12,390 nt of DNA, taken from contig JAUSPT010000085.1 of NCBI GenBank assembly GCA_030652805.1, forward strand, positions 1-12,390, given 5' to 3'. The DNA is from a bacterium. GTDB lineage: Bacteria; JAHJDO01. Shown piece after piece: positions 232 to 12,278 of the stretch. A model generated the notes under the pieces. That model was given only the letters and a program-made list of their open reading frames with translations. It had not been told where the DNA came from and did no database searches. Each line of letters begins with the position of its first letter. The stretch's first letter is position 1. The translations under genes and the position numbers were made by a program.

Positions 232-1104
232 TTACTGAGTAATTTCTTCTCTCATTTTTCTGAAATTCTGAGCTGTTTTGGATAAAACCTCTTCAGGAGA
301 AAGATTTGTTTTCATTTGCTCCAGAGAGAAAAATCCATCGAAATTATCTTCAGCCATTATTTGCATCAGTTCCTTTATTGGCATATCTCCTTCTCCAAGA
401 TGCGCATATTCCCAGTTCTTATACATATCGGGTGCATGGAATTCGTGCTTTTTCATTGGAAATGGATTTCCTTCACCAGTATATTTGGCATCTCTTGTAT
501 GCAAATGGGTTACTTTCCCTTTTATTATTGGATAAACTTCACGAGGCACATCCCCGTTTGTTATAGAGTGCGTAAAGTCCCAGTTGATTGAGAGACCGTG
601 AGCATCTGCTCTCTGGAGAATCTCGTTAGCATTCTTCACCCTGCAAATATCATCGTGTGTCTCAAGAGAAAGGATGTCTCCGTGTTCTGCGGCAAATTTC
701 CCGCATTCAGCTATCCCCTTTGCAATTCTATCAAAGAACCTATCTCTATTCTCTATCTTTGGTTCAGGAATAGTTCCTCCAAATACTCTGAGAAGTTTGA
801 TTCCGAGGTCCGATGCCAAAATGATATGCTGTTTGCAATTCTCAATATTTCTGCGGTATTCAGTGTCATCTGGAGAAGAATATTGAACAGAAGTAGCAAG
901 GCAGCTTAAAATTATACCGCCATCTTTACACTTTGTCTTTACCTGTTCACGCTCGGATTTTGTGAGACTCAGCTCAACACCATGTTTATGGTTACTCTCT
1001 ACCCTTGGCTCAAAGCCGTCAAAACCGTATTCTTTTGCTTTTGCAAGGATTGTATCTAAATTCCATTCTTTACAGCTAAAACTCATAAAACTGCTTTTTA
1101 ACAT
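232..1104 (-). CDS. Sugar phosphate isomerase/epimerase-like TIM-barrel protein (AP endonuclease 2 / xylose isomerase-like fold)
   Basis: A 290-residue cytosolic protein with no signal peptide. The xylose isomerase-like TIM-barrel pattern is visible: the N-terminal strand with SFMSFSC (5-11) and GFEPRV (30-35), RVFGG (106-110), and four probable divalent-metal ligands E148 (LSLETHDD), D176 (INWDFTH), H202 (HLHTRD) and E262 (FSLEQ). Family members isomerise, epimerise or dehydrate sugars, inositol derivatives or keto-sugars; the substrate cannot be told. It is clearly paralogous to the TIM barrel at 6086-6877, with the same SFMSFSC start and EPRV-SNH motif, but carries a longer segment after H202 (about residues 206-237). 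Start: ATG with AAGGAG 8 nt upstream, directly behind the previous gene's stop. Last gene before the terminator. Confidence 0.85.
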   Translation of the reverse strand: MLKSSFMSFSCKEWNLDTILAKAKEYGFDGFEPRVESNHKHGVELSLTKSEREQVKTKCKDGGIILSCLATSVQYSSPDDTEYRRNIENCKQHIILASDLGIKLLRVFGGTIPEPKIENRDRFFDRIAKGIAECGKFAAEHGDILSLETHDDICRVKNANEILQRADAHGLSINWDFTHSITNGDVPREVYPIIKGKVTHLHTRDAKYTGEGNPFPMKKHEFHAPDMYKNWEYAHLGEGDMPIKELMQIMAEDNFDGFFSLEQMKTNLSPEEVLSKTAQNFRKMREEITQ

Positions 1105-1118
1105 TTGCGTTTCTCCTT

Positions 1119-1934
1119 TTAATAATTTTTCATAACGGATTTCATGAACTCCACACTTGCAGGAACACCTGTTGTCTCATCTTCCTCTCCCTCATATTCA
1201 AGCGCAACAAACCCATCAAATCCTGCATTCTTGATATGCTGAAGACATTTAGCGTGATCCACGTCTCCCTGTCCAACAACAGTCGGACGAAGTCCTCTTT
1301 TGTGAGCTGGATCCTTTTTAAAATCCTTGAAATGTACATACTTGCAGTATGGGGCAGCAATCTTTGTTCCTTCATCTCCTGCCTGACCGCATTGCATATA
1401 ATTACCCACATCAATCGTAGCTTTCAAAAATGGGGAATTTATTTTTTCTATAACTTCTACCTGTTCTTCTCCTGTGCATGGGAGTCCGCCATGATTTTCT
1501 AAAGCCAATATAACATTGTTTTTCTCAGCAGAAGGAAGAACCAGTTCAATACCTTTTATAACCTTATCAAGTGCTTTTTTAATCTCTTCTGCATTACTTC
1601 TGTCGCTAATGCTTCCACCAAAGATTCTTGAGACAGGAGCGCCTACACCTCCTGCAACGTCCAGCCATCTTTTGACTTTTTCCACATGCTCATTAAATTC
1701 ATCTTCTTCCTTATTAAAACTGTTAGACATAGAAAGGCCTGAAAGTTCAAGCGTTGTCTTTGACATAAGCGCATTTATCTGTTTTACGGCTTCTTTATAT
1801 TCAGGCAAATACGCTACATGGAAATCTATGCCTTCAATTCCAAGTTTTTCAGCTTCAATAACAAATTTTCCCAGATTCCACTTTTCTTCTTTAATTCTTC
1901 TATGATAACTATAGTGACAAAGCGATTTTTTCAT
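1119..1934 (-). CDS. Sugar phosphate isomerase/epimerase-like TIM-barrel protein
   Basis: 271 residues, cytosolic. The xylose isomerase-like TIM barrel is supported by RIFGGS (103-108) and the four expected metal ligands: E146 (LALENHGG), D175 (TIDVGN), H201 (YVHFKD) and E246 (ALEYEG). The GQGDVDH motif (221-227) is the usual loop before the last strands in this family. It lacks the SFMSFSC start shared by the other two TIM barrels here, so it probably acts on a different intermediate. Start: ATG with an AGGAG 7 nt upstream. The stop at 1119-1121 abuts the ribosome-binding site of the following gene, which is 14 nt away, so the two are likely co-translated. The exact reaction (isomerase, epimerase or lyase) is unknown. 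Confidence 0.85.
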   Translation of the reverse strand: MKKSLCHYSYHRRIKEEKWNLGKFVIEAEKLGIEGIDFHVAYLPEYKEAVKQINALMSKTTLELSGLSMSNSFNKEEDEFNEHVEKVKRWLDVAGGVGAPVSRIFGGSISDRSNAEEIKKALDKVIKGIELVLPSAEKNNVILALENHGGLPCTGEEQVEVIEKINSPFLKATIDVGNYMQCGQAGDEGTKIAAPYCKYVHFKDFKKDPAHKRGLRPTVVGQGDVDHAKCLQHIKNAGFDGFVALEYEGEEDETTGVPASVEFMKSVMKNY

Positions 1935-1953
1935 TGTTATTCTCCTATTGTTA

Positions 1954-3000
1954 TTATACAGGACACATTTTATGACACTTATATATCAGCGCAATCTGTC
2001 TTCTAACGCTTTCAGGCGTTATATACAGCGGTTCACCCTGTCGAATGGTCTTATAAACATCATTATAAAAGTCAGGATTTCGTGATGTATCGCTTGGAAC
2101 TTTCCATGTTTGCTCTTTCCATGGAATATCTTCTTTGTTATATGCCCGGTTTGGATCAGGTTTTGTGGAGACACTTCTATTAGGAAGTTTTTTAGGATCA
2201 AAGTATTTCCATCTAAGTTCCTTAGCATTTCCAGCCAGAGTGCCCTGGGTTCCCATTACAAGCCAGTGTTCCTGAGAATATGCGCATGCACTTGTCAGTT
2301 CAAGGTCAATCATTGGCTGCCCTTTTGCCTTTAGTATAATTTTTACATGGTCATCAGCATCTCCAAGCGTCAGTGTCCGCTCCAGATGGCAGAATACTTC
2401 TTCAGGGTCTTTTTCTCCAAATAACTGTAATAATACATCTATAGCATGCGGCGCAGTATTGTTAAGTGTTCCTCCACCAAATTTCTTCAATGTCTGCCAA
2501 TCCCAGCGTCTTCCAAAACCATGCCATGTTTGTTTAATCATTACTATACGCCCCAACTTCCCTGAATCAATAATCTTCTTAATCTTTAGAAAATCAGGTG
2601 TATAACGCCTGTTTTGGAAAGGGGCCAGTATCATGCCGGTCATTTTCGCGGTTTTAAGCATCTTATCTGCGTCAGCTAAACTGGTTGCCATTGGCTTCTC
2701 ACACACAACATGTTTCCCTGCTTTTAACGCTTTAATACTGCAACCTGCATGCAGATGCGAAGGAGTCGCAACAACCACAAGCTCAACATCTGGGTCTTTT
2801 ATTAAGTCGTCGAAATTTGAATATATTTTACATTTAAATTCATCTTGTGCTTCTTTCTGTCTTTTCTTATCAGGGTCAGAAACTGCTACGATCTTATATT
2901 TATCCAATACTTGTCTGATCATACGAATATGGATGTCCCATCCACTCTTCCCAAGTCCAATAACACCTACGTTAATTACTTTGTTTTTTTTCTTAGCCAT
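1954..3000 (-). CDS. Gfo/Idh/MocA family NAD(P)-dependent oxidoreductase
   Basis: 348 residues, the normal length for this family. The N-terminal Rossmann domain has GLGKSG (15-20) for dinucleotide binding, followed by VSDPD (40-44); EKP (101-103) provides the conserved lysine, and the C-terminal domain has FGGGTLNNTAPHAID (174-188) with H185 and D188 as probable catalytic residues. Members oxidise or reduce hydroxyl groups of sugars, inositols or their glycosides with NAD(P). It is paralogous to the oxidoreductase at 5049-6065: both share the WQT...FGGG segment, a GD..D motif and DPDK.RQK. Start: ATG with AAGGAG 8 nt upstream; 11 nt after the preceding gene and 19 nt before the next. The substrate is not identifiable. 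Confidence 0.9.
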   Translation of the reverse strand: MAKKKNKVINVGVIGLGKSGWDIHIRMIRQVLDKYKIVAVSDPDKKRQKEAQDEFKCKIYSNFDDLIKDPDVELVVVATPSHLHAGCSIKALKAGKHVVCEKPMATSLADADKMLKTAKMTGMILAPFQNRRYTPDFLKIKKIIDSGKLGRIVMIKQTWHGFGRRWDWQTLKKFGGGTLNNTAPHAIDVLLQLFGEKDPEEVFCHLERTLTLGDADDHVKIILKAKGQPMIDLELTSACAYSQEHWLVMGTQGTLAGNAKELRWKYFDPKKLPNRSVSTKPDPNRAYNKEDIPWKEQTWKVPSDTSRNPDFYNDVYKTIRQGEPLYITPESVRRQIALIYKCHKMCPV

Positions 3001-3011
3001 GTGTTTTCTCC

Positions 3012-3890
3012 TTATATTTTTACTTCTTCATTGTTTCTTACTGATTTATCAATTGCAAGCAACACCTTAACAGGCATTAAAAGCTCCTTATCAGTTAAGG
3101 GGTTTTCGTTACTATTGATAGTATCTATTAACTTTTTAAAAGCTTTATCATATCCATCCGAAGAATCTACTATCAGATGTCTGCTGCCTTTTTCGCAGTG
3201 AACAAGCACCTGAAACTCTCCTTTCCCTTCTCCGAGAAGATGAAGAGACACAACTTTCTCACTTTGCAAACCTGCTGTTACCCAACAGTTTTTTCCATAC
3301 AATCTAGCGCTAATTGTCTTTACATCATATCCGAATCCATTAAGGAGCATTTCAACTGTGTGTATGCCGTAAAAGAATACGCCACCGTACTCACTCTTAA
3401 AATCAAAAGGGCCGCCAACCATACCTGAATGAATAGGACCTAAGTCTTCAACAGTCTGTTTAAAGAAATTCTGAAAACTGGATGTCTGCCATACACTGGA
3501 CCATGAAGAAAGCCATGTGTTAGTCTGGTGGCTGAGTTCTATAAGCTCTTTTGCTTCTTCTAAGTCGCATGTTATGGGTTTATCAATAAAGGTTGGAATT
3601 TTATTTTTCAGAAATAGCTTTGCATATCTGGCATGATATTTAGCATGACGGTTCATAATAATAATTGCATCAACTTTTCCAAGCATATCCTCCGGCTTAT
3701 CAACAAGTAAAGGAACCTTCCCTTGTTCCTGAACCTGTTTTACGTGCTCCAGAGTATCTCCTTCGCCCGGATATAGAGCTTCTACGAATGCACCATTCAT
3801 AGTTTTCTCAACATTAAACCGCTTGCATGCCTGGTTCACATGCGAATTCTCCGTTCCGATTACACCGAATCTTATTACTTTTGTCTCCAT
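3012..3890 (-). CDS. Divergent Gfo/Idh/MocA family oxidoreductase
   Basis: 292 residues, shorter than the usual ~340-380. The first strand reads GVIGTENSH (9-17), so the classical GxGxxG dinucleotide loop is missing, but the family's IDKP (102-105, with K104) and a C-terminal YGIHTVE (174-180, H177 in the catalytic His position, E180 where Asp is usual) are present. This variant (GTENSH start) forms a recognisable branch of the family. It may be a dehydrogenase with altered cofactor binding, or a partner or non-redox member; the sequence does not decide. Start: ATG with a strong AGGAGG 6 nt upstream. It lies 22 nt after the UroD-family gene and 11 nt before the next oxidoreductase, with its stop inside that gene's ribosome-binding site. 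Confidence 0.8.
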   Translation of the reverse strand: METKVIRFGVIGTENSHVNQACKRFNVEKTMNGAFVEALYPGEGDTLEHVKQVQEQGKVPLLVDKPEDMLGKVDAIIIMNRHAKYHARYAKLFLKNKIPTFIDKPITCDLEEAKELIELSHQTNTWLSSWSSVWQTSSFQNFFKQTVEDLGPIHSGMVGGPFDFKSEYGGVFFYGIHTVEMLLNGFGYDVKTISARLYGKNCWVTAGLQSEKVVSLHLLGEGKGEFQVLVHCEKGSRHLIVDSSDGYDKAFKKLIDTINSNENPLTDKELLMPVKVLLAIDKSVRNNEEVKI

Positions 3891-3912
3891 CCCTTGCCTC
3901 CTTTTTTTATTT

Positions 3913-5052
3913 TTATCTTATTTTCTGAAACTCTTCCCACATTACCCAGAAGTTCTCTGCAGGGACATCTGCCTGGATATTGTGAATAGCAGAAAATACA
4001 TATCCTCCATCTTTAGCAAGTATGTCAACGGATTTTTTTACATCATCCCTAACCTGCTGAGGTGTTCCATGAGGCAGAGTCTCCTGAGTATTAACTCCTC
4101 CTCCCCAGAAACAAATGGCTTTTGAGAATTCATTTTTTAATCTTTCAGCGTTCATACCTACAGCATTAGTTTGCACTGGATTCAATACATCTACACCTAT
4201 ATCAATAAGATCTGGAATTATTTCTGATATTGCACCACAGCTATGAAAGAAAATTTTCGCTTTAGGAGCTTTTGATTTGATAAAAGACAATAGCTTCTTT
4301 TGTCTCGGCTTTAGAATTCCCCTATACATATCAGGTGAGACCAATAAACTTTGCTGCGTCCCAAGGTCGTCGCATTCAGCAATAATATCTGCTCGCTTTC
4401 CTGCAAATGAAAGAACTCTATCCCAGTATCGCATTTTTACTTCCAGTATTTTATCAATTAAATACTCAGCCATTTTGACAGATGTAGCCAGGTCCATGTA
4501 AAAATTTTCGTAGCCTCTTATCCTGAAAGCCATTTCAAACAACCCCGCGCAATTGCGGTCAACTATCAGTGCCTTATCATCAGGTATAATCTCAAGTTCT
4601 TTTCTTAATATATCAAAGTTAACTGTCTTCTCAGGATCTGGAAAATCATATAATCTTAAATCCCCAATGGTTTTTGCATTCTGAAGAGGAGAGGCAGAGT
4701 CCTCGTTAAAGTAGAAATCTGTTTCAGTATTCATATTCCATGTTATACCCCATTCATCTTGATAGCTTATTGTTTTATCTTCTTTAGTTGTTTTTTTGTT
4801 AAGATTGTAAACGCGTGGCGGTCCAAGTCTTATAGTATCCACACCTAAATAATCAAGAACCTGTTTTGAGGGAATAACAATTTGCTGTATATCATCATGC
4901 ATTATAAAATCACATGGCAGATTTCGCAATTTCATTGCATTTATGAAAGCTGTTTTTGTAATAGCTGTTACTGTTGTCCCGGACAAGTCATAGGGAATTT
5001 TATCGGGTTCAGAATGTCCAAGTGCTCTTAAAACTCGCTCCCTTGATGTCAT
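3913..5052 (-). CDS. Uroporphyrinogen decarboxylase (UroD/MtaA-like) family protein
   Basis: 379 residues. The start TSRERVLRALGHSEPDKIP is the typical opening of the UroD superfamily, which covers haem-pathway decarboxylases and the zinc methyltransferases MtaA/MtbA/CmuA. Features resembling the methyltransferase branch are FFHSCGAI (268-275; H270 and C272 in the zinc-ligand position), DVLNPVQ (288-294) and AIHNIQADVP (355-364), where H357 stands at the site of the third Cys ligand of MtaA-type proteins. Among sugar-catabolic genes and far from haem genes it is unlikely to be HemE. A role in methyl transfer or another metal-dependent step is inference. Its ATG overlaps the stop of the preceding oxidoreductase by 4 nt (ATGA), implying translational coupling and a shared pathway. 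Confidence 0.85.
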   Translation of the reverse strand: MTSRERVLRALGHSEPDKIPYDLSGTTVTAITKTAFINAMKLRNLPCDFIMHDDIQQIVIPSKQVLDYLGVDTIRLGPPRVYNLNKKTTKEDKTISYQDEWGITWNMNTETDFYFNEDSASPLQNAKTIGDLRLYDFPDPEKTVNFDILRKELEIIPDDKALIVDRNCAGLFEMAFRIRGYENFYMDLATSVKMAEYLIDKILEVKMRYWDRVLSFAGKRADIIAECDDLGTQQSLLVSPDMYRGILKPRQKKLLSFIKSKAPKAKIFFHSCGAISEIIPDLIDIGVDVLNPVQTNAVGMNAERLKNEFSKAICFWGGGVNTQETLPHGTPQQVRDDVKKSVDILAKDGGYVFSAIHNIQADVPAENFWVMWEEFQKIR

Positions 5053-6065
5053 AGCTTGATTGTACTTCCCTTTTTATTGGATTCTCGGACAGTGTCCAGC
5101 ACTTTCATAAGGTTCAGCACACTTTCAGGTGTGACTGAAAAAGATTTTTCCCCATGTATTGCCTGAGCCAGTTCGAGGTAAATTACAGAAGCATCTCCGT
5201 AAATAAACTTTCCAACAGGTGTTCTCTCTATAACATCTCTCTTCTCGCTATTACCGGGAATACCCGTAACAAATTGTTGTTTCTTTTTCGGGACAACTAC
5301 ATAAATATATTTTTCATCTGATGTAATTGTTCCAAGTGAGCCCTGTATAAACCATCTTGGAAGCTGTTCTGCTCCGATGCCAATATTTATTTCGCCTATT
5401 ATATCAGAATTTTTAAAAGCAAGAATGGTTTTAATGCTATCCTCGACATCTCCTGGATTAATGGCCTGCCAGAGTTTTCCCCATACGCTTTCCACAGGTT
5501 CATTAACCAGTTCTATAACCTGATCAATAAGATGAGGTCCCCAGTTCAGAAGATAGCCGCCTCCGAATTTGCTCTTTGTCTGCCAGTCGTCACGTACATC
5601 ATAGAATAAAAAGTTTCTTTGAATGCTGAACGCCTCGCCAATTTTACCTTCAGCAATTATTTTTTTAATCTGCGTAAAATCCGTTCCCCAGCGAGATGGC
5701 TGCCATGGAGCCAGTATCCTTTTGTATTTTTTTGAGGCATCCAGCATTTTTTTTACCTGAACTGCATTAATTGCCATTGGTTTTGTAACCAGAACATGTA
5801 CCCCTTTTTTCATAGCTTCAATCGCCATTGAAACGTGTTGGTCGCTTCTTGTAATGATACATGCAAGGTCTATTTTTTCTTTTTTGAACAAAGAGGATAG
5901 ATTATTGTATGTGGAACATCCAAATCGCTGGTAAGCTTTTTTTTGTCTTTCCTTATCAGGGTCACATACAGCTACCACTTCATACTCAGGCAGAGCTTCA
6001 AGCGGGTCTGCATGAAGTTTACTTCCACTGCGTCCATAACCAATAATTGCTGTTCTTATAGCCAT
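5049..6065 (-). CDS. Gfo/Idh/MocA family NAD(P)-dependent oxidoreductase
   Basis: 338 residues. The Rossmann loop is GYGRSG (9-14), followed by VCDPDKERQKK (33-43); TKP (94-96) carries the conserved lysine K95, and the C-terminal domain contains WQTKSKFGGGYLLNWGPHLID (161-181) with H178 and D181 as probable catalytic residues. EKP is changed to TKP relative to the usual motif. It is paralogous to the oxidoreductase at 1954-3000. Likely an NAD(P)-dependent dehydrogenase of a sugar or cyclitol-like substrate, cytosolic. Start: ATG with AAAGGAG close upstream; 20 nt after the TIM-barrel gene, and its TGA overlaps the ATG of the following UroD-family gene. Confidence 0.9.
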   Translation of the reverse strand: MAIRTAIIGYGRSGSKLHADPLEALPEYEVVAVCDPDKERQKKAYQRFGCSTYNNLSSLFKKEKIDLACIITRSDQHVSMAIEAMKKGVHVLVTKPMAINAVQVKKMLDASKKYKRILAPWQPSRWGTDFTQIKKIIAEGKIGEAFSIQRNFLFYDVRDDWQTKSKFGGGYLLNWGPHLIDQVIELVNEPVESVWGKLWQAINPGDVEDSIKTILAFKNSDIIGEINIGIGAEQLPRWFIQGSLGTITSDEKYIYVVVPKKKQQFVTGIPGNSEKRDVIERTPVGKFIYGDASVIYLELAQAIHGEKSFSVTPESVLNLMKVLDTVRESNKKGSTIKL

Positions 6066-6085
6066 AGTCTTCTCCTTTGAATCTC

Positions 6086-6877
6086 CTATTCATACTTCTT
6101 CATTATCGACAGTTCGCGCGGCAAATGTATTTCATAAGATTCCCAGTTAATCCATTCTCCGCTTAAAAAGCCACTGTAATTGCTATCTTTTAAAAGCTGC
6201 ATTGCTCGTTGATGATCAATATCTCCTTCGCCAATCGGGACCATAACCAACTTGCCGTCTTTCTTTGTGACTCCGTCATGGAAGTGAATATGCTTAATCC
6301 ATAATTTGAGTGTCTGGAATGCTTCATCCATTGTCACTTTTTCCACACGGACAGGATGCATGATATCCCAGTTAACAGCAATTGCTGGGTGATTTACCCT
6401 CTTCATTACCTCCGCGAGATGCTTGGGATTACACCAGTGATCATGAGTTTCCAAACACACAGTTACATTCCTTTCCACAGCGTGACCAGCAACAGATTGC
6501 ATGGATTTAACCAGAAGATCAATTGCTTCTTCTCTGGTGGTTCCTTCCGGAATCACGCCGCCAAATACCCTGATTACAGGAGCGCCGACATCAGCTGCCA
6601 GATCAATTGATTCATGTGTATCACTAATCATATCCTCATTGGTTGCAGGATTAGCATAGATGCAGGATGTTGCAATGCAGGAAAAAACAATACCACTTTC
6701 TTTCGACTTTTCTTTGCATTCCTTGCGGAAAGATTGGGATGAATCAAACTCAATTTTATGCCTATGGTTAGAGCTGACCCGTGGTTCAATGCCATAGTAA
6801 CCATACTTTTTGGCAACTGCTATCATTTCGTCCAGATTAAGTTCAGGACACGAAAAACTCATAAAAGAAAATTTCAT
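6086..6877 (-). CDS. Sugar phosphate isomerase/epimerase-like TIM-barrel protein
   Basis: 263 residues with a xylose isomerase-like TIM barrel. SFMSFSC (4-10) and GIEPRV (29-34) form the start, RVFGG (103-107) follows, and the probable metal ligands are E143 (VCLETHDH), D171 (VNWDIMH), H198 (HIHFHD) and E241 (SGEW). GEGDIDH (216-222) is the usual late loop. It is a close relative of the TIM barrel at 232-1104, and the two share their N-terminal motifs almost residue for residue, so an ancestral duplication is likely. Start: ATG with GGAGAG just upstream. It follows the UroD/MetE-like gene by 46 nt and precedes an oxidoreductase by 20 nt. Function is isomerisation, epimerisation or a related sugar reaction; substrate unknown. 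Confidence 0.85.
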   Translation of the reverse strand: MKFSFMSFSCPELNLDEMIAVAKKYGYYGIEPRVSSNHRHKIEFDSSQSFRKECKEKSKESGIVFSCIATSCIYANPATNEDMISDTHESIDLAADVGAPVIRVFGGVIPEGTTREEAIDLLVKSMQSVAGHAVERNVTVCLETHDHWCNPKHLAEVMKRVNHPAIAVNWDIMHPVRVEKVTMDEAFQTLKLWIKHIHFHDGVTKKDGKLVMVPIGEGDIDHQRAMQLLKDSNYSGFLSGEWINWESYEIHLPRELSIMKKYE

Positions 6878-6923
6878 AATCTCTCCACTTTTTGTTGTTT
6901 TTTTACAGTTAAGTCTTTATGCT

Positions 6924-8141
6924 TTAAAAAACTTTTGCAATTACCTCTCTTGTAATTTTCATCCATTCACGAACTCGGTTTTGATCTCCCTCAACGGTTT
7001 CTATGTCTTTCAGCGTGATGTCAACGTGACAGTCTTTGCATGCTTCCAAGTCTTTCTTCAAAATTGAACGGATGCGGTCAGGATTAAAACCATAGCCTAC
7101 CATATCAGTGGGGCTTGGACGGTAACTCAGGACATAGTCTTGCCCGATTTGCTCAGCACATTTCGCCACATTCGCAAAGGGAGAAATGGCAATGCGGCGC
7201 AGGTTTGGAATTTGACGCAGCATATTGATCTTGTGGGTAAGATCCTCGCAGCAACCATATGCCACCAACCCGAACCTTTTTAAGATTGGAAGCTGGTATT
7301 GCAACATAAACTCATTGTGCATTGCTGGAGATACAGCCGTAAATTCTTGCGCCGCCATGAATCCCCATAAGTTGCTTTGCATTACGCCATTAACATTTGC
7401 TGCTGGGTCATCAAGCTCTTCCACATAGGGCATGGACTGATTCTGGTGTGCGCAAAGACCCCAGTCTCTAGCCTCTTCAGCTTGCTTGTGTGTCCGCAAA
7501 ATACCATCACTCATGAATTTCAATAATTTGTGCAGCCAGTCCGGATTATCAATCATATCCATCATAAAATGTTCAATCCCTCTTAAATGTCCCAAACTAG
7601 TTGAGATATCACCTCTCCACATGAGGTATGCGGGACCGCGGTCAACATTGATTGTAATGACATCGCCAATAGCATCCTGCAGACGATTTACATTACGAGT
7701 TGTAGCTTCCTCATCAATTTCGTGCCAGGGAGCGTGCAACTTTCCAATATCTTCCAGCTTTTTTATGGGATAGTCTATTTTGTAGGAGCCGCCTTGTTCA
7801 TCTGAGAAGTTTCGTTTACCATCAATTCCAAACCCTTTACACTTTCGCGTCGCTTGTACAGTTACCCATGGCTCAAAAATAGAATCATCATTCAAAGTAT
7901 CCCAGAACAAGTCGTGTCTTAAAATGTTCTCAAAGTCTCTAAGGAAGGCATCTTCGCAACAGCACTTGGATTGAGGCATTTCTCTCCATGCGAAAGCTCG
8001 TACATAAATGAGAGGATAGTTTCCTTTAAGACTGTTGTGTCGTCGCCACAGGGTACGACGCTCCTTTTGCACATCTCTATTGCAAACCTCAAGATATTGC
8101 CTGGCGAGGTCACGTAGAATAACTTTGTCATTTGAAGTCAT
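6924..8141 (-). CDS. UroD / cobalamin-independent methionine synthase-like family protein, Cys-rich
   Basis: 405 residues, cytosolic. The late part has the pattern of the UroD/MetE-like group: NLWGFMAAQEF (257-267), GLVAYGCCEDLTHKI (291-305), PNLRRIAISPFANV (312-325) and DYVLSYRPSPT (335-345). The Cys pair C297/C298 with E299 is a probable metal or cofactor site; C60-C61-C62 and C328 add further cysteines. Relatives have no firmly assigned reaction; corrinoid- or zinc-linked methyl transfer is the usual guess. The ATG at 8141 is the only standard start (ATG/GTG/TTG) between the upstream in-frame stop and about residue 55, and it has no recognisable Shine-Dalgarno sequence. It is the first gene after a 74-nt gap behind the AraC regulator and the first of the catabolic block. 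Confidence 0.8.
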   Translation of the reverse strand: MTSNDKVILRDLARQYLEVCNRDVQKERRTLWRRHNSLKGNYPLIYVRAFAWREMPQSKCCCEDAFLRDFENILRHDLFWDTLNDDSIFEPWVTVQATRKCKGFGIDGKRNFSDEQGGSYKIDYPIKKLEDIGKLHAPWHEIDEEATTRNVNRLQDAIGDVITINVDRGPAYLMWRGDISTSLGHLRGIEHFMMDMIDNPDWLHKLLKFMSDGILRTHKQAEEARDWGLCAHQNQSMPYVEELDDPAANVNGVMQSNLWGFMAAQEFTAVSPAMHNEFMLQYQLPILKRFGLVAYGCCEDLTHKINMLRQIPNLRRIAISPFANVAKCAEQIGQDYVLSYRPSPTDMVGYGFNPDRIRSILKKDLEACKDCHVDITLKDIETVEGDQNRVREWMKITREVIAKVF

Positions 8142-8215: not shown

Positions 8216-9064
8216 CTATACTGTTTCAGAGAGAGAAGCCAGAAATTCAGATGGAGTAATTCCTTCTTTTTGCTTGAATATATAGCTAAAATAATGGGAG
8301 TCTTCATATCCGACAAGAGAAGAAACTTCAGAAATATTGTAATCTGTTTCAATAAGCAGGCGCTTTGCGTGGTTAATTCTTTTACTGGTAAGATAATCAA
8401 TAGGGGATTTACCTATAATTTTCTTAAAAATATTACCAAAATATGTTTCACTTAGATTTGCTTCTCTAGCCATATCTTGCAGGGTTATATCCTTTTGATA
8501 GTTAGCTCGTATGAATTTTTCTGCTTTGATTATATTTTTGTAACTTTTTATCCGTCGGAATTGATGGCTGTCTTTTGTATTTAAATAGGTATTTAGAACA
8601 AGACCAAGTAGAGCTTTTAATTCACCACCTGTAATGATGGGAGAGACCATTGACTGATTATGCATATGATGATAAACAATAGCAGAACATATTGTTCTTA
8701 TTTCAGCATCTGTTTGAATATGAACAATTCGAGGCCACTTTTTCCCATTTGGCAAAATAGGTGTCTTTCTCTTTAATTTATTTGTATTATAAAAATCAAA
8801 GTGGATGTAGTAACGGGCAAAATTTTCATCTCCTTCTGTATATATATTGAAATTTTCCCCAGGATACACAAGAAGCACATCCCCTTTTTCAAGGTGATAT
8901 TCGGCATCATCTACAACTAATGTTCCTCTTCCTGATGCAACAAAATGGAGATCATGGTCAGAGCAAACCTGTGTTTTTTTGCTTTTTTCAACAAATCCTG
9001 GTGGAGAACTGGTTTTTCCTGCAGAATTCACCACAGGAGAAATATTACTAAGGTCTTTAGTCAT
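8216..9064 (-). CDS. AraC-family transcriptional regulator with N-terminal cupin
   Basis: 282 residues, two domains. An N-terminal cupin-like sensor (about 38-95; HDLHFVASGRGTLVVDD, then GDVLLVYPGE) probably binds a small ligand such as a sugar. The C-terminal DNA-binding domain (about 175-278) has both helix-turn-helix units: ITLQDMAREANLSETYFGNIFK and the signature GYEDSHYFSYIFKQKEGITPSEF (252-274 region). It probably activates the downstream catabolic genes when ligand is bound; target and ligand are inference from position. Its ATG is only 5 nt after the icd stop and has no clear Shine-Dalgarno sequence, so translation may depend on coupling to icd. Lines sampled within it are about 28-32% G+C, lower than the following two genes. 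Confidence 0.9.
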   Translation of the reverse strand: MTKDLSNISPVVNSAGKTSSPPGFVEKSKKTQVCSDHDLHFVASGRGTLVVDDAEYHLEKGDVLLVYPGENFNIYTEGDENFARYYIHFDFYNTNKLKRKTPILPNGKKWPRIVHIQTDAEIRTICSAIVYHHMHNQSMVSPIITGGELKALLGLVLNTYLNTKDSHQFRRIKSYKNIIKAEKFIRANYQKDITLQDMAREANLSETYFGNIFKKIIGKSPIDYLTSKRINHAKRLLIETDYNISEVSSLVGYEDSHYFSYIFKQKEGITPSEFLASLSETV

Positions 9065-9069
9065 ATTAG

Positions 9070-10281
9070 CTATTCTGTCATGTTCTTTATGACTTCATCT
9101 CCAAACTCAGAGCATTTAAGAAGCTTTGCTCCATTCATCAATCTTTCAAAATCATATGTAACTTTTTTGCTTAAGATTGCCTTACTTATTCCTTCAGTAA
9201 TAAGATTCGCAGCCTCCTCCCATCCAATATATCTAAACATCATCTCTCCAGACAATATCAATGAGCCGGGGTTTACCTTATCCATACCTCTATACTTGGG
9301 CGCTGTGCCATGAGTTGCCTCAAATATTGCATGACCGGTTTCATAGTTGATATTTCCGCCGGGTGATATTCCGATGCCTCCTACCTGTGCAGCTATCGCG
9401 TCTGAAATGTAATCTCCATTGAGATTCATTGTAGCTATTACATCGAATTCGTCTGTTCTTGTTAATATTTGCTGTAAGAAAATATCAGCAATGGTATCTT
9501 TTATTAAGATTTTTCCCCGAGGAACGCTTCCTTTACATTCGTTCCATGATATAACTTCTTCTGAAAACTCATCCTTTGCCAGCTCATATCCCCAGTTTCT
9601 AAATGCACCCTCTGTATATTTCTGAATATTGCCTTTATGAACAAGAGTTACGCTTTTTCTTTTATTCTTTATAGCATGCTTTATTGCTGCTCTTATTAAT
9701 CTTTTACTTCCAGTCTCACTTATGGGTTTCAGGCCTATGCCAGAGTCTTCCCTAATGTGCCATCCAAAAGAATCTTTGCAAAAGCTGATAAGCTTCTTTA
9801 CATCTTCTGAATATGCTTGTAGTTCTAGGCCTGCATAGACATCCTCTGTGTTTTCCCGAAAGATAATTACATCAACCTTCTCTGGATGCTTGACCGGGCT
9901 CGGGACACCTTCGAGCCATCTTACTGGTCGCAGACAAACGTATAGATCCAATAATTTTCTAAGAGTTACATTTAGACTTTTAAAGCCGCCGCCAACAGGC
10001 GTTGTTAGAGGACCTTTTATGCCTACCAGATATTTTTTGAAAGCATTAACTGTTTGTTCAGGTAGCCATTCTTTTGTTTTTTTATATGCTTTTTCTCCTG
10101 CAAATATTTCTTTCCATACAATTTTTCTCTTGCCTTTATATGCCTTCTCAACCGCAGCGTTAAATACTCTTACCGAAGCTCGCCAGATATCAGGACCAGT
10201 TCCATCTCCCTCAATAAAGGGAATAATTGGTTTATCAGGCACACAGAGTTTTCCTTCTCTCATCCTGATTTGGTTGCCCAT
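9070..10281 (-). CDS. icd: Isocitrate dehydrogenase, NADP-dependent
   Basis: 403 residues (the E. coli enzyme has 416). It oxidatively decarboxylates isocitrate to 2-oxoglutarate in the TCA cycle, in the cytosol. Visible active-site elements are [12 protein letters not shown] (22-33), the substrate loop S102/N104 with R108, R118, R142 ([11 protein letters not shown], with Y149), K216 (VHKGN) and NLNGDYISD (286-294, D290 and D294). NADP preference is indicated by K329-Y330 in ATHGTAPKY, and by Y376 and R380 in VTYDFERLM, the residues that contact the 2'-phosphate in E. coli. The C-terminus is very like enterobacterial Icd. The ATG is 2 nt after the aconitase stop, with AAAGGA inside the end of acn; an operon with acn is almost certain. 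A second in-frame ATG is at codon 7. Confidence 0.96.
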
Positions 10282-10283
10282 TA

Positions 10284-12227
10284 TTATTTGTCCTTTCTTT
10301 TTATATAATTTAATAAACCTCCTGCCACTATTATCTGTTTTTCCTTTTCAGTAAAATCATATTTCACCTCAATATTAACATTCTTGGTTTTGTTTTTTAA
10401 AACTAGTTTTGCATTTTTTGTTATTGTTTTCTCTACATCCCGAATTTCCCCAATATCTCCTGCATTTAGATGCTGATAATCCTCGGATTTTATAAAGATA
10501 AGAGGCAGGATGCCAAAGTTTATTAAATTGGTTCTATGGATTCTTTCTATGGATTTTGCAATAACAGCTTTTACTCCCAGATACATTGGGCATATAGCTG
10601 CATGCTCGCGGCTTGAACCTTGTCCATAACTCAGTCCAGTCACAATAATATTACTATAACCATCTAATTTATTGTCCTTACATCGGTTCGGGAAAGACGG
10701 ATCAATCTCTTCAAATACAAATTGAGAGTATTTTTTAATATTGGAGCGATATTTCAATCTTGATCCTGCAGGCATTATGTGATCAGTAGTAATTTCATCT
10801 CCTACTTTAATTGCAATTTTAGCATTGATATTTTCAGACAAAGGTTTGTTTTTGGGAGGCTCTCCAATATTCGGGCCTTTATATATCTTTGTTTTTTTGC
10901 CCTCAGGTGCCGGGTGGATGATCATAGTGTCATCTACATGAAATTTCTTTGGTAGGTCAAAAGATGGGAAAACAGGTTCCTTAAGATCACGTGGATCAGT
11001 GATTTCTCCGGACAGGGCACAGGCAGCAGCTGTTTCAGGACTTGATAGGTAAACAAAAGCAGATTGAGTCCCGCAACGGCCCTTGAAATTTCTATTACTG
11101 GTTCTGATGCTTACTGCTCCTGTAGCTGGAGCGTGGCTGTTCCCAATACAGAATCCACATGCACACTCTGCAATTCTAGCCCCTGCATCAATCAATGTGG
11201 AAAGACTGCCGTCATCTGTTATCATTTTTAATACCTGCCTTGAACCTGGAGAAACTACAAAGCTTACGTTCTGTGAAATTTTATGTCCTTTGACTATATG
11301 AGCAGCTGTCTTAAGGTCATTATAGGAAGAGTTGGTGCAACTGCCAATGATTACTTGATCTACCCTTTTCCCAGCTAGTTCTCTTACCGGAGCAACATTT
11401 CCCGGGCTATGAGGACATGCCAGCATGGGTTCAATTTCAGAAAGATTAATGTTTATTACTTTTTCATACTTAGCATCTGAGTCTGCCTTTAATTCTTTCC
11501 ACACACTTTCTCTATTCTCAGCTACAAGAAATTTCTTTGTAAGAAAGTCGCTGGGGAAAACTGATGTTGTCACGCCAAGCTCTGCACCCATATTGGTTAT
11601 AATCGCTCTTTCTGGGACATCTAAACTTTCAAGTCCACTGCCTCCATATTCTATTATGGTTCCAACGTTTCCTTTGGTGCCAAACATCTTTAAAATTGTA
11701 AGTATTATATCCTTTGCGTTTATCCATGGATTTAATTTGCCTTCCAGATTAATGCGGATGATTCTGGGATAACGCAGGGTATATTCACATGTTCCCATTG
11801 CCACAGCTACGTCCAATCCACCTGCTCCGATAGCGAGCATTCCCATGCCTCCGGCTGTAGGAGTGTGGGAATCTGAACCAAGAAGTGTTTTTCCAGGCTC
11901 AGCAAACCTTTCCAGATGCACCTGATGGCATATTCCATTTCCCGCTCTGGAAAAATAAGCTCCATACTTACAAGCAGCAGTTTGAAGATAGCGGTGGTCA
12001 TCGGCATTCTCAAAACCGGCCTGTATAGTATTATGGTCAACATAACTGACAGATAGCTCTGTTTTTATCTTTTGAATTCCAAGAGCTTCAAACTGCAGGT
12101 AAGTCATTGTTCCTGTAGCATCCTGGGTAAGGGTCTGGTCTATTTTTAGAATAATTTCTTTACCAGATATCATTTTCCCTTTCAGGAGATGTTCTTTTAT
12201 GATTTTTTCTACTATACCTAAACCCAA
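10284..12227 (-). CDS. acn: Aconitate hydratase, short single-chain form
   Basis: Converts citrate to isocitrate via cis-aconitate with a [4Fe-4S] cluster. With the start preferred here it has 647 residues, much shorter than E. coli AcnA/AcnB (about 865-890) but typical of the compact bacterial form. [13 protein letters not shown] opens the first domain; VDHN and [14 protein letters not shown] follow; the cluster ligands are C297 (IGSCTNSS), C357 and C360 (ECACGFC), numbered from this start. The swivel domain has [14 protein letters not shown] and [14 protein letters not shown]. Start choice: the frame continues to a TTG at 12278, but a TTG at 12227 gives GLGIVEKI, the usual family N-terminus, with AGGGGA 7 nt upstream. 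Homoaconitase or isopropylmalate dehydratase is less likely given the adjoining icd. Confidence 0.93.
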
Positions 12228-12234
12228 TTTTATG

Positions 12235-12240
12235 TCCCCT
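12235..12240 (-). promoter_or_regulatory. acn: Ribosome-binding site that decides the acn start
   Basis: The minus strand reads AGGGGA here, 7 nt before the TTG at 12227. The competing TTG at 12278 also has an AAGGA (12288-12292) 9 nt upstream, so the choice rests on the family N-terminus and on the promoter proposed at 12250-12278. Confidence 0.55.
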
Positions 12241-12249
12241 TCATTCTTT

Positions 12250-12278
12250 AATATAACTTTCTTTGAGTGAAATAGCAA
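12250..12278 (-). promoter_or_regulatory. Candidate sigma70-type promoter for acn-icd
   Basis: On the minus strand TTGCTA (12278-12273) is separated by exactly 17 nt from TATATT (12255-12250): four of six matches to TTGACA and five of six to TATAAT. Transcription would begin near 12243, leaving a very short leader that still contains the Shine-Dalgarno sequence. If real it rules out the TTG at 12278 as start codon, as this would be the -35 box. AT-rich DNA makes chance matches common. Confidence 0.4.

Follow-up and report, generated by a model that had tools for sequence, protein, structure and literature searches.

The window analysed here, a stretch of 12,390 nt, is one complete contig (G000:C85) of a 2.0-Mb genome assembly. 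Eight co-directional open reading frames run from 8141 to 232 on the minus strand, all confirmed at their stated coordinates within the span given by an earlier note on this DNA, in the 5'-to-3' order U1-T1-G1-U2-G2-G3-T2-T3. U1 (6924–8141) is a UroD-fold protein by predicted structure; T1 (6086–6877) is a xylose-isomerase-like TIM barrel, followed by the Gfo/Idh/MocA dehydrogenase G1 (5049–6065), the MtaA-like UroD-superfamily protein U2 (3913–5052), the short, divergent Gfo/Idh/MocA protein G2 (3012–3890), a further Gfo/Idh/MocA dehydrogenase, G3 (1954–3000), and two more TIM barrels, T2 (1119–1934) and T3 (232–1104). The genes are separated, from U1 to T3, by 46, 20, −4, 22, 11, 19 and 14 nt, and 3' of T3, on the same strand, lies a terminator-like hairpin of 15 pairs with a T-rich tail (211–174), the longest stem of its kind in the window, where the total of terminator-like matches (10, versus 8.9 by chance) is not above chance. 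The tight spacing described in the earlier note was thus found, and a terminator-like hairpin stands where the note placed its terminator.

The same-strand run continues upstream of the block through an AraC-family regulator (8216–9064; Pfam HTH_18 and AraC_binding), icd, encoding NADP-isocitrate dehydrogenase (9070–10281; NCBIfam TIGR00183, 665 bits, cut-off 567), and the aconitase gene acn (10284–12278; kept in 5 of 5 genomes of the genus), all of them minus-strand genes; going upstream, the gaps are 74, 5 and 2 nt. The AraC gene probably encodes the regulator of the block; it is absent from the locus of a congener (G002) in which the block has been lost. No transporter, kinase, glycosidase or corrinoid protein gene was found within the 12,390-bp window, an absence that applies to this contig alone. 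PADLOC gave no match for U1 or G2, and a scan of viral contigs with icd as the query matched only icd relatives.

Gfo/Idh/MocA enzymes catalyse NAD(P)-linked oxidation of sugar or polyol hydroxyls, and xylose-isomerase-like metal barrels perform enediol chemistry (epimerisation, isomerisation, elimination). The three Gfo proteins scored 41–112 bits against Pfam GFO_IDH_MocA (cut-off 24), and the three TIM barrels, which match Pfam AP_endonuc_2 (PF01261), all keep an intact E/D/H/E metal set (E143, D171, H198 and E241 in T1); dehydrogenase roles for the former and isomerase roles for the latter are probable. Because T1 and T3 (35% identical) and G1 and G3 (38%) are paralogous, the block reads as two UroD+TIM+Gfo sets, and the pathway suggested in the earlier note looks more like two modules than one invariant eight-step route. 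Its other suggestion, that this set of oxidoreductases, isomerases and UroD-fold proteins matches no characterised pathway, agrees with the NCBIfam searches, in which none of the block's Gfo or TIM proteins reached a cut-off (IolG, IolE or others). A variant of inositol catabolism, with an IolG-like dehydrogenase and an IolE-like dehydratase, would draw on the same superfamilies and would explain why IolG is the best NCBIfam match of G3 and why T2 and T3 weakly match IolE, but with scores far below the curated cut-offs (123 versus 355 bits for IolG, at most 32 versus 290 for IolE), and with no other iol gene in the window, we regard it as very improbable.

The Gfo and TIM proteins also bear on oxidation-dependent glycoside cleavage or inversion of the Dgp or Ycj type, in which a Gfo protein would form a 3-keto-glycoside, a TIM barrel would eliminate the aglycone or epimerise a neighbouring carbon, a second Gfo protein would re-reduce, and the UroD-fold proteins would carry out an unrelated or non-methyl step. 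G1 and G3 match DgpA2 (9m37, with isoorientin) and E. coli YcjS (26–30% identity) along with many uncharacterised dehydrogenases, T2 matches Art22 (8z1i, E 2e-15) and, weakly, DgpC1 (9m3b), and the E-D-H-E metal set resembles that of C-deglycosidases (PMC8563793). A Gfo dehydrogenase together with a metal-dependent TIM barrel is common to the block and the DgpA-DgpB/C and CarA-B/C C-deglycosylation systems, and E. coli ycjMNOPQRSTU likewise has a Gfo dehydrogenase beside a TIM-barrel epimerase. Against this, uncharacterised Gfo proteins outscore DgpA2, the beta subunit is missing from the block, all of whose genes belong to other families (Pfam), and three Gfo proteins, three TIM barrels and two UroD-fold proteins exceed what these systems need. 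The Ycj comparison is further weakened because YcjR is not detectably similar to any block protein (no BLASTP match better than E 0.01), and the block lacks the phosphorylase, transporter and Zn-dehydrogenase of that cluster while having UroD-fold proteins. We consider a Dgp- or Ycj-like route unlikely.

UroD-fold proteins include the corrinoid methyltransferases MtvB, OdmB, VdmB, MtoB and CdmB. U2 scored 71.7 bits against Pfam URO-D (gathering score 23.9), and its best solved structure by profile search was the methylcobalamin:CoM methyltransferase MtaA (4ay7, E 3e-11), which was also the best Foldseek match (E 6e-14) of its predicted model (pLDDT 91.5); by structural Z score (VIA, about 27) MtaA tied with UROD itself (27.1 versus 26.7). 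In common with MtaA/MtvB/CdmB-type methyltransferases, U2 has, besides the fold, the His-x-Cys pair of the corrinoid-methyltransferase zinc site (H270 and C272 in HSCG, aligned to HICG of MtaA and invariant in 14 sequences). D229 and H357 are also invariant, and H357 falls on the position of MtaA's third Cys ligand, a substitution that does not exclude methyltransferase function, because zinc-free members of this group exist (CdmB, PMC13222342). Scores against the NCBIfam models were well below their cut-offs (57 versus 400 bits for MtaA, 51 versus 235 for CmuA). The HemE N-terminal RQAGR motif is missing from U2 and had no match in the ORFs of the window or the neighbouring ORFs. Methyl transfer by U2 is plausible and is the best-supported reading of the protein.

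U1 had no match in Pfam, including the URO-D model, or in NCBIfam. Its AlphaFold2 model (mean pLDDT 92.7) aligned with UROD over 292 residues (VIA, Z 19.6, rmsd 3.6), followed by MtaA (4ay8, Z 17.2), MetE (Z about 11) and unrelated barrels (about 9 or less), and profile-profile comparison with the U2 family returned a probability of 93.6%. At the level of predicted structure, the UroD-superfamily fold of U1 is therefore confirmed, and the earlier note's count of three Gfo proteins, three metal-site TIM barrels and two UroD-fold proteins is borne out, by Pfam and, for U1, by this model. An alignment of 21 relatives contains 29 invariant positions, including D85, D86, R187, G188, E222, W259, Y295, C298 and E299. 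Where the HxCG zinc motif is expected, U1 has YGCCE, with the His ligand, and so the His-x-Cys of UroD-type corrinoid methyltransferases, lost, and with the second Cys and the Glu of the Gly-Cys-Cys-Glu site invariant. Because of this change in the motif, methyl transfer by U1 is only speculative, and the demethylation that had been proposed for the UroD-fold proteins of the block applies best to U2.

Relatives of U1 at 45–75% identity were found in 18 genomes, titled as Planctomycetota, Armatimonadota, Latescibacterota, Verrucomicrobia, Kiritimatiellae, Lentisphaerae/Victivallales, Neomarinimicrobiota and Clostridia, with one more at 30% on a Subdoligranulum plasmid record. U1 appears to travel alone, as its neighbourhoods in the 18 genomes share no partner gene; the neighbours include a serpin, GH116, GH30, malic enzyme and a DUF4838 protein. 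The U1 tree mixes phyla, with most forks weakly supported, and the U1 of the window shares 75% identity with a planctomycete relative but 60% with its counterpart in the congener G001.

Comparison within the phylum covered five genomes, all of one genus (the source, G000, and congeners G001–G004). In G001 (L031), acn-icd-araC is followed by U1'-G1-U2-G2-G3-T2-T3, with T1 missing; the order G1-U2-G2-G3-T2-T3 thus recurs, with protein identities of 88–97% and dN/dS of 0.11–0.33 for these six shared non-U1 genes, ratios by which the six are under purifying selection, and which, with the recurrent order, argue that the block is not a chance arrangement. G004 (L117) has a U2-G3-T2 core after a different TIM gene, and the contig examined is without the rest of the block (G2 and T3 missing, G1 not found), while in G003 the C-terminal part of U2 lies at a contig edge. 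In G002, acn-icd is kept, and a 47-bp remnant of U2 beside icd (91% identity; L122 13993–14039) indicates loss of the whole block. U1 and its G001 counterpart (L031 14079–15323) differ with a dS of 2.3, compared with 0.08–0.19 for most neighbouring genes, whereas their first 20 codons are 95% identical (later bins mostly 45–80%), which suggests that recombination probably replaced U1, and T1, and that one breakpoint fell within U1. Separately, G2 (3012–3890) has a dS of 0.57 to its G001 orthologue, compared with about 0.1 in the flanking genes, and may have a history separate from theirs.

The block order is restricted to the genus, mosaic and unstable. Gene-order conservation, which the earlier note had proposed as a check, was found within the genus; in other phyla, the neighbourhoods of 18 relatives of U1 and about 22 of U2 did not show the order. 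The genomes searched for U2 relatives included a Planctomycetota sample (392) and Latescibacterota (16), those for T2 relatives Armatimonadota (291), and the order was seen at none of these loci; these U2 and T2 checks were performed on all six frames, the loci being GC-rich. The closest partial set outside the genus was a TIM-UroD-UroD arrangement with a U2-like second UroD gene in an armatimonadotal genome (G008, L098 7703–10878).

This variability would be expected if the locus, bounded by acn-icd and gcvPB/rpsA, were an accretion site that gathers independent genes for sugar modification, U2-G3-T2 alone being a true pathway unit. G001 without T1 and with a different U1, G004 with U2-G3-T2, and G002 without any of the block all fit such a site, as do the raised dS values of G2 and U1 and the occurrence of T1 and T2 copies beside other UroD genes; the six genes that hold their order under purifying selection between G000 and G001, and the tight spacing with one overlap, which suggests co-translation, do not. 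We consider accretion unlikely. Copies of both TIM genes occur elsewhere: an internally deleted copy of T1 (88% nucleotide identity at its 5' end) lies between an MttB-UroD pair and an amidohydrolase gene (L064 6101–8973, G000:C86), and a copy of T2 (86%) immediately follows a UroD gene that is broken into two overlapping frames (L123 1888–3746, G001:C5).

The absence of a corrinoid protein gene, which the earlier note had listed, holds for the window and not for the genome, which encodes a single, stand-alone corrinoid protein of 216 aa (PF02607+PF02310); its gene neighbours one of AraC type, and the RACo reactivase is encoded about 5 kb away. All three genes lie within about 7 kb (L059 1118–8360, G000:C100). 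In this the genome resembles those with MtaA/MtvB/CdmB-type systems, from which the block differs in having neither a corrinoid protein nor a second methyltransferase gene, and in the His at the third ligand position of U2. In G001, the corrinoid protein and RACo are encoded on the block's own contig, and G002, which has lost the block, has neither. G002 nevertheless has six URO-D matches without a PF02607 protein, so not every UroD-fold gene in the genus needs a corrinoid protein. Each of the 18 foreign genomes that carry U1 has at least one PF02607 ORF much shorter than MetH (209–345 aa; in G011 only a 108-aa piece), a suggestive association of U1 with a stand-alone corrinoid protein, counted among U1-bearing genomes only.

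Pfam URO-D has 19 matches in the source genome, where UroD-fold genes number about 20 and several of them adjoin Gfo or TIM genes. Of the 20 UroD-fold genes outside the window, 6 have a Gfo or TIM gene on the same strand within 3 kb, compared with one Gfo and one TIM gene in 367 kb of sampled background, an enrichment that is rough, as the background stretches were chosen by hand on large contigs and clustered genes are not independent. MttB-type methyltransferase genes also occur beside UroD genes in this genome, and at L153 a gap of 9 nt separates a U2 relative (42% identity) from a homocysteine S-methyltransferase gene.

We tentatively read the block, at somewhat less than an even chance, as a catabolic operon linked to AraC in a bacterium that degrades carbohydrates. 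Its two modules would carry out oxidation, isomerisation or elimination, and demethylation of a sugar-like compound, with a corrinoid protein acting in trans. The functional sets would be U1-T1-G1 and U2-G2-G3-T2-T3. We infer an order of steps in which Gfo proteins would oxidise a hydroxyl group on a substrate resembling a sugar or inositol, and possibly re-reduce a later intermediate, the metal-dependent TIM barrels would exploit the keto group for epimerisation, isomerisation or elimination, and U2, less surely U1, would act as substrate:corrinoid methyltransferases. The methyl donor would be the substrate or its keto product, and the acceptor the one stand-alone corrinoid protein, which is encoded outside the block and which RACo would keep active. 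The reading is supported by the families and folds, by the MtaA matches of U2 and the alignment of H270, C272 and H357, by the presence of the corrinoid protein and RACo in the genome and of neither in G002, by the PF02607 ORFs of the 18 foreign genomes, by links to methyl transfer (the homocysteine S-methyltransferase gene at L153 and the T1 copy after MttB-UroD at L064), by the recurrent pairing of UroD genes with Gfo or TIM genes and by purifying selection. Arguing against it are the lack of a corrinoid protein, second methyltransferase or transporter gene in the block, the His in place of the third Cys in U2, the missing His in U1, the Z-score tie of U2 with UROD and the six URO-D matches of G002, a genome with no PF02607 protein. 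A single fixed pathway is weakened by the mosaicism, with U1 and T1 swapped in G001 and, in G004, G2 and T3 missing and G1 not found.

A more specific version of the demethylation reading, possible but doubtful, is an anaerobic route for O-methylated sugars or cyclitols that would combine keto-activation by Gfo and TIM proteins with B12-dependent demethylation. A single corrinoid protein acting in trans would then serve about 20 UroD-fold and MttB methyltransferases, and U1 would represent a new Cys-Glu class of UroD-fold methyltransferase. Open-licence literature was searched for UroD with Gfo and xylose-isomerase-like genes, and for the removal of methyl groups from O-methylated sugars under anaerobic conditions, and no paper on this gene combination was found. 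The families themselves are known, and the eight-gene order is of less value than the UroD+Gfo+TIM module that recurs, the one corrinoid protein as a hub, and the U1 family, for which no model exists in Pfam or NCBIfam. Many uncultured bacteria that degrade carbohydrates have multiple UroD-fold genes, which are readily mistaken for heme enzymes in annotation; if UroD+Gfo+TIM modules are pathways that demethylate sugars and feed one corrinoid protein, many such genes become testable as B12-dependent sugar metabolism, and the U1 family gains a role.

Two further observations were made at other loci. One cluster of the source genome (L060 1754–11986, G000:C38) contains three UroD genes, a split transketolase, a sulfatase and a Gfo gene, and at L107, L127 and L128, short, repeated prepilin-like ORFs with FTLIELLVVIAIIALLAS leaders lie beside carbohydrate genes.
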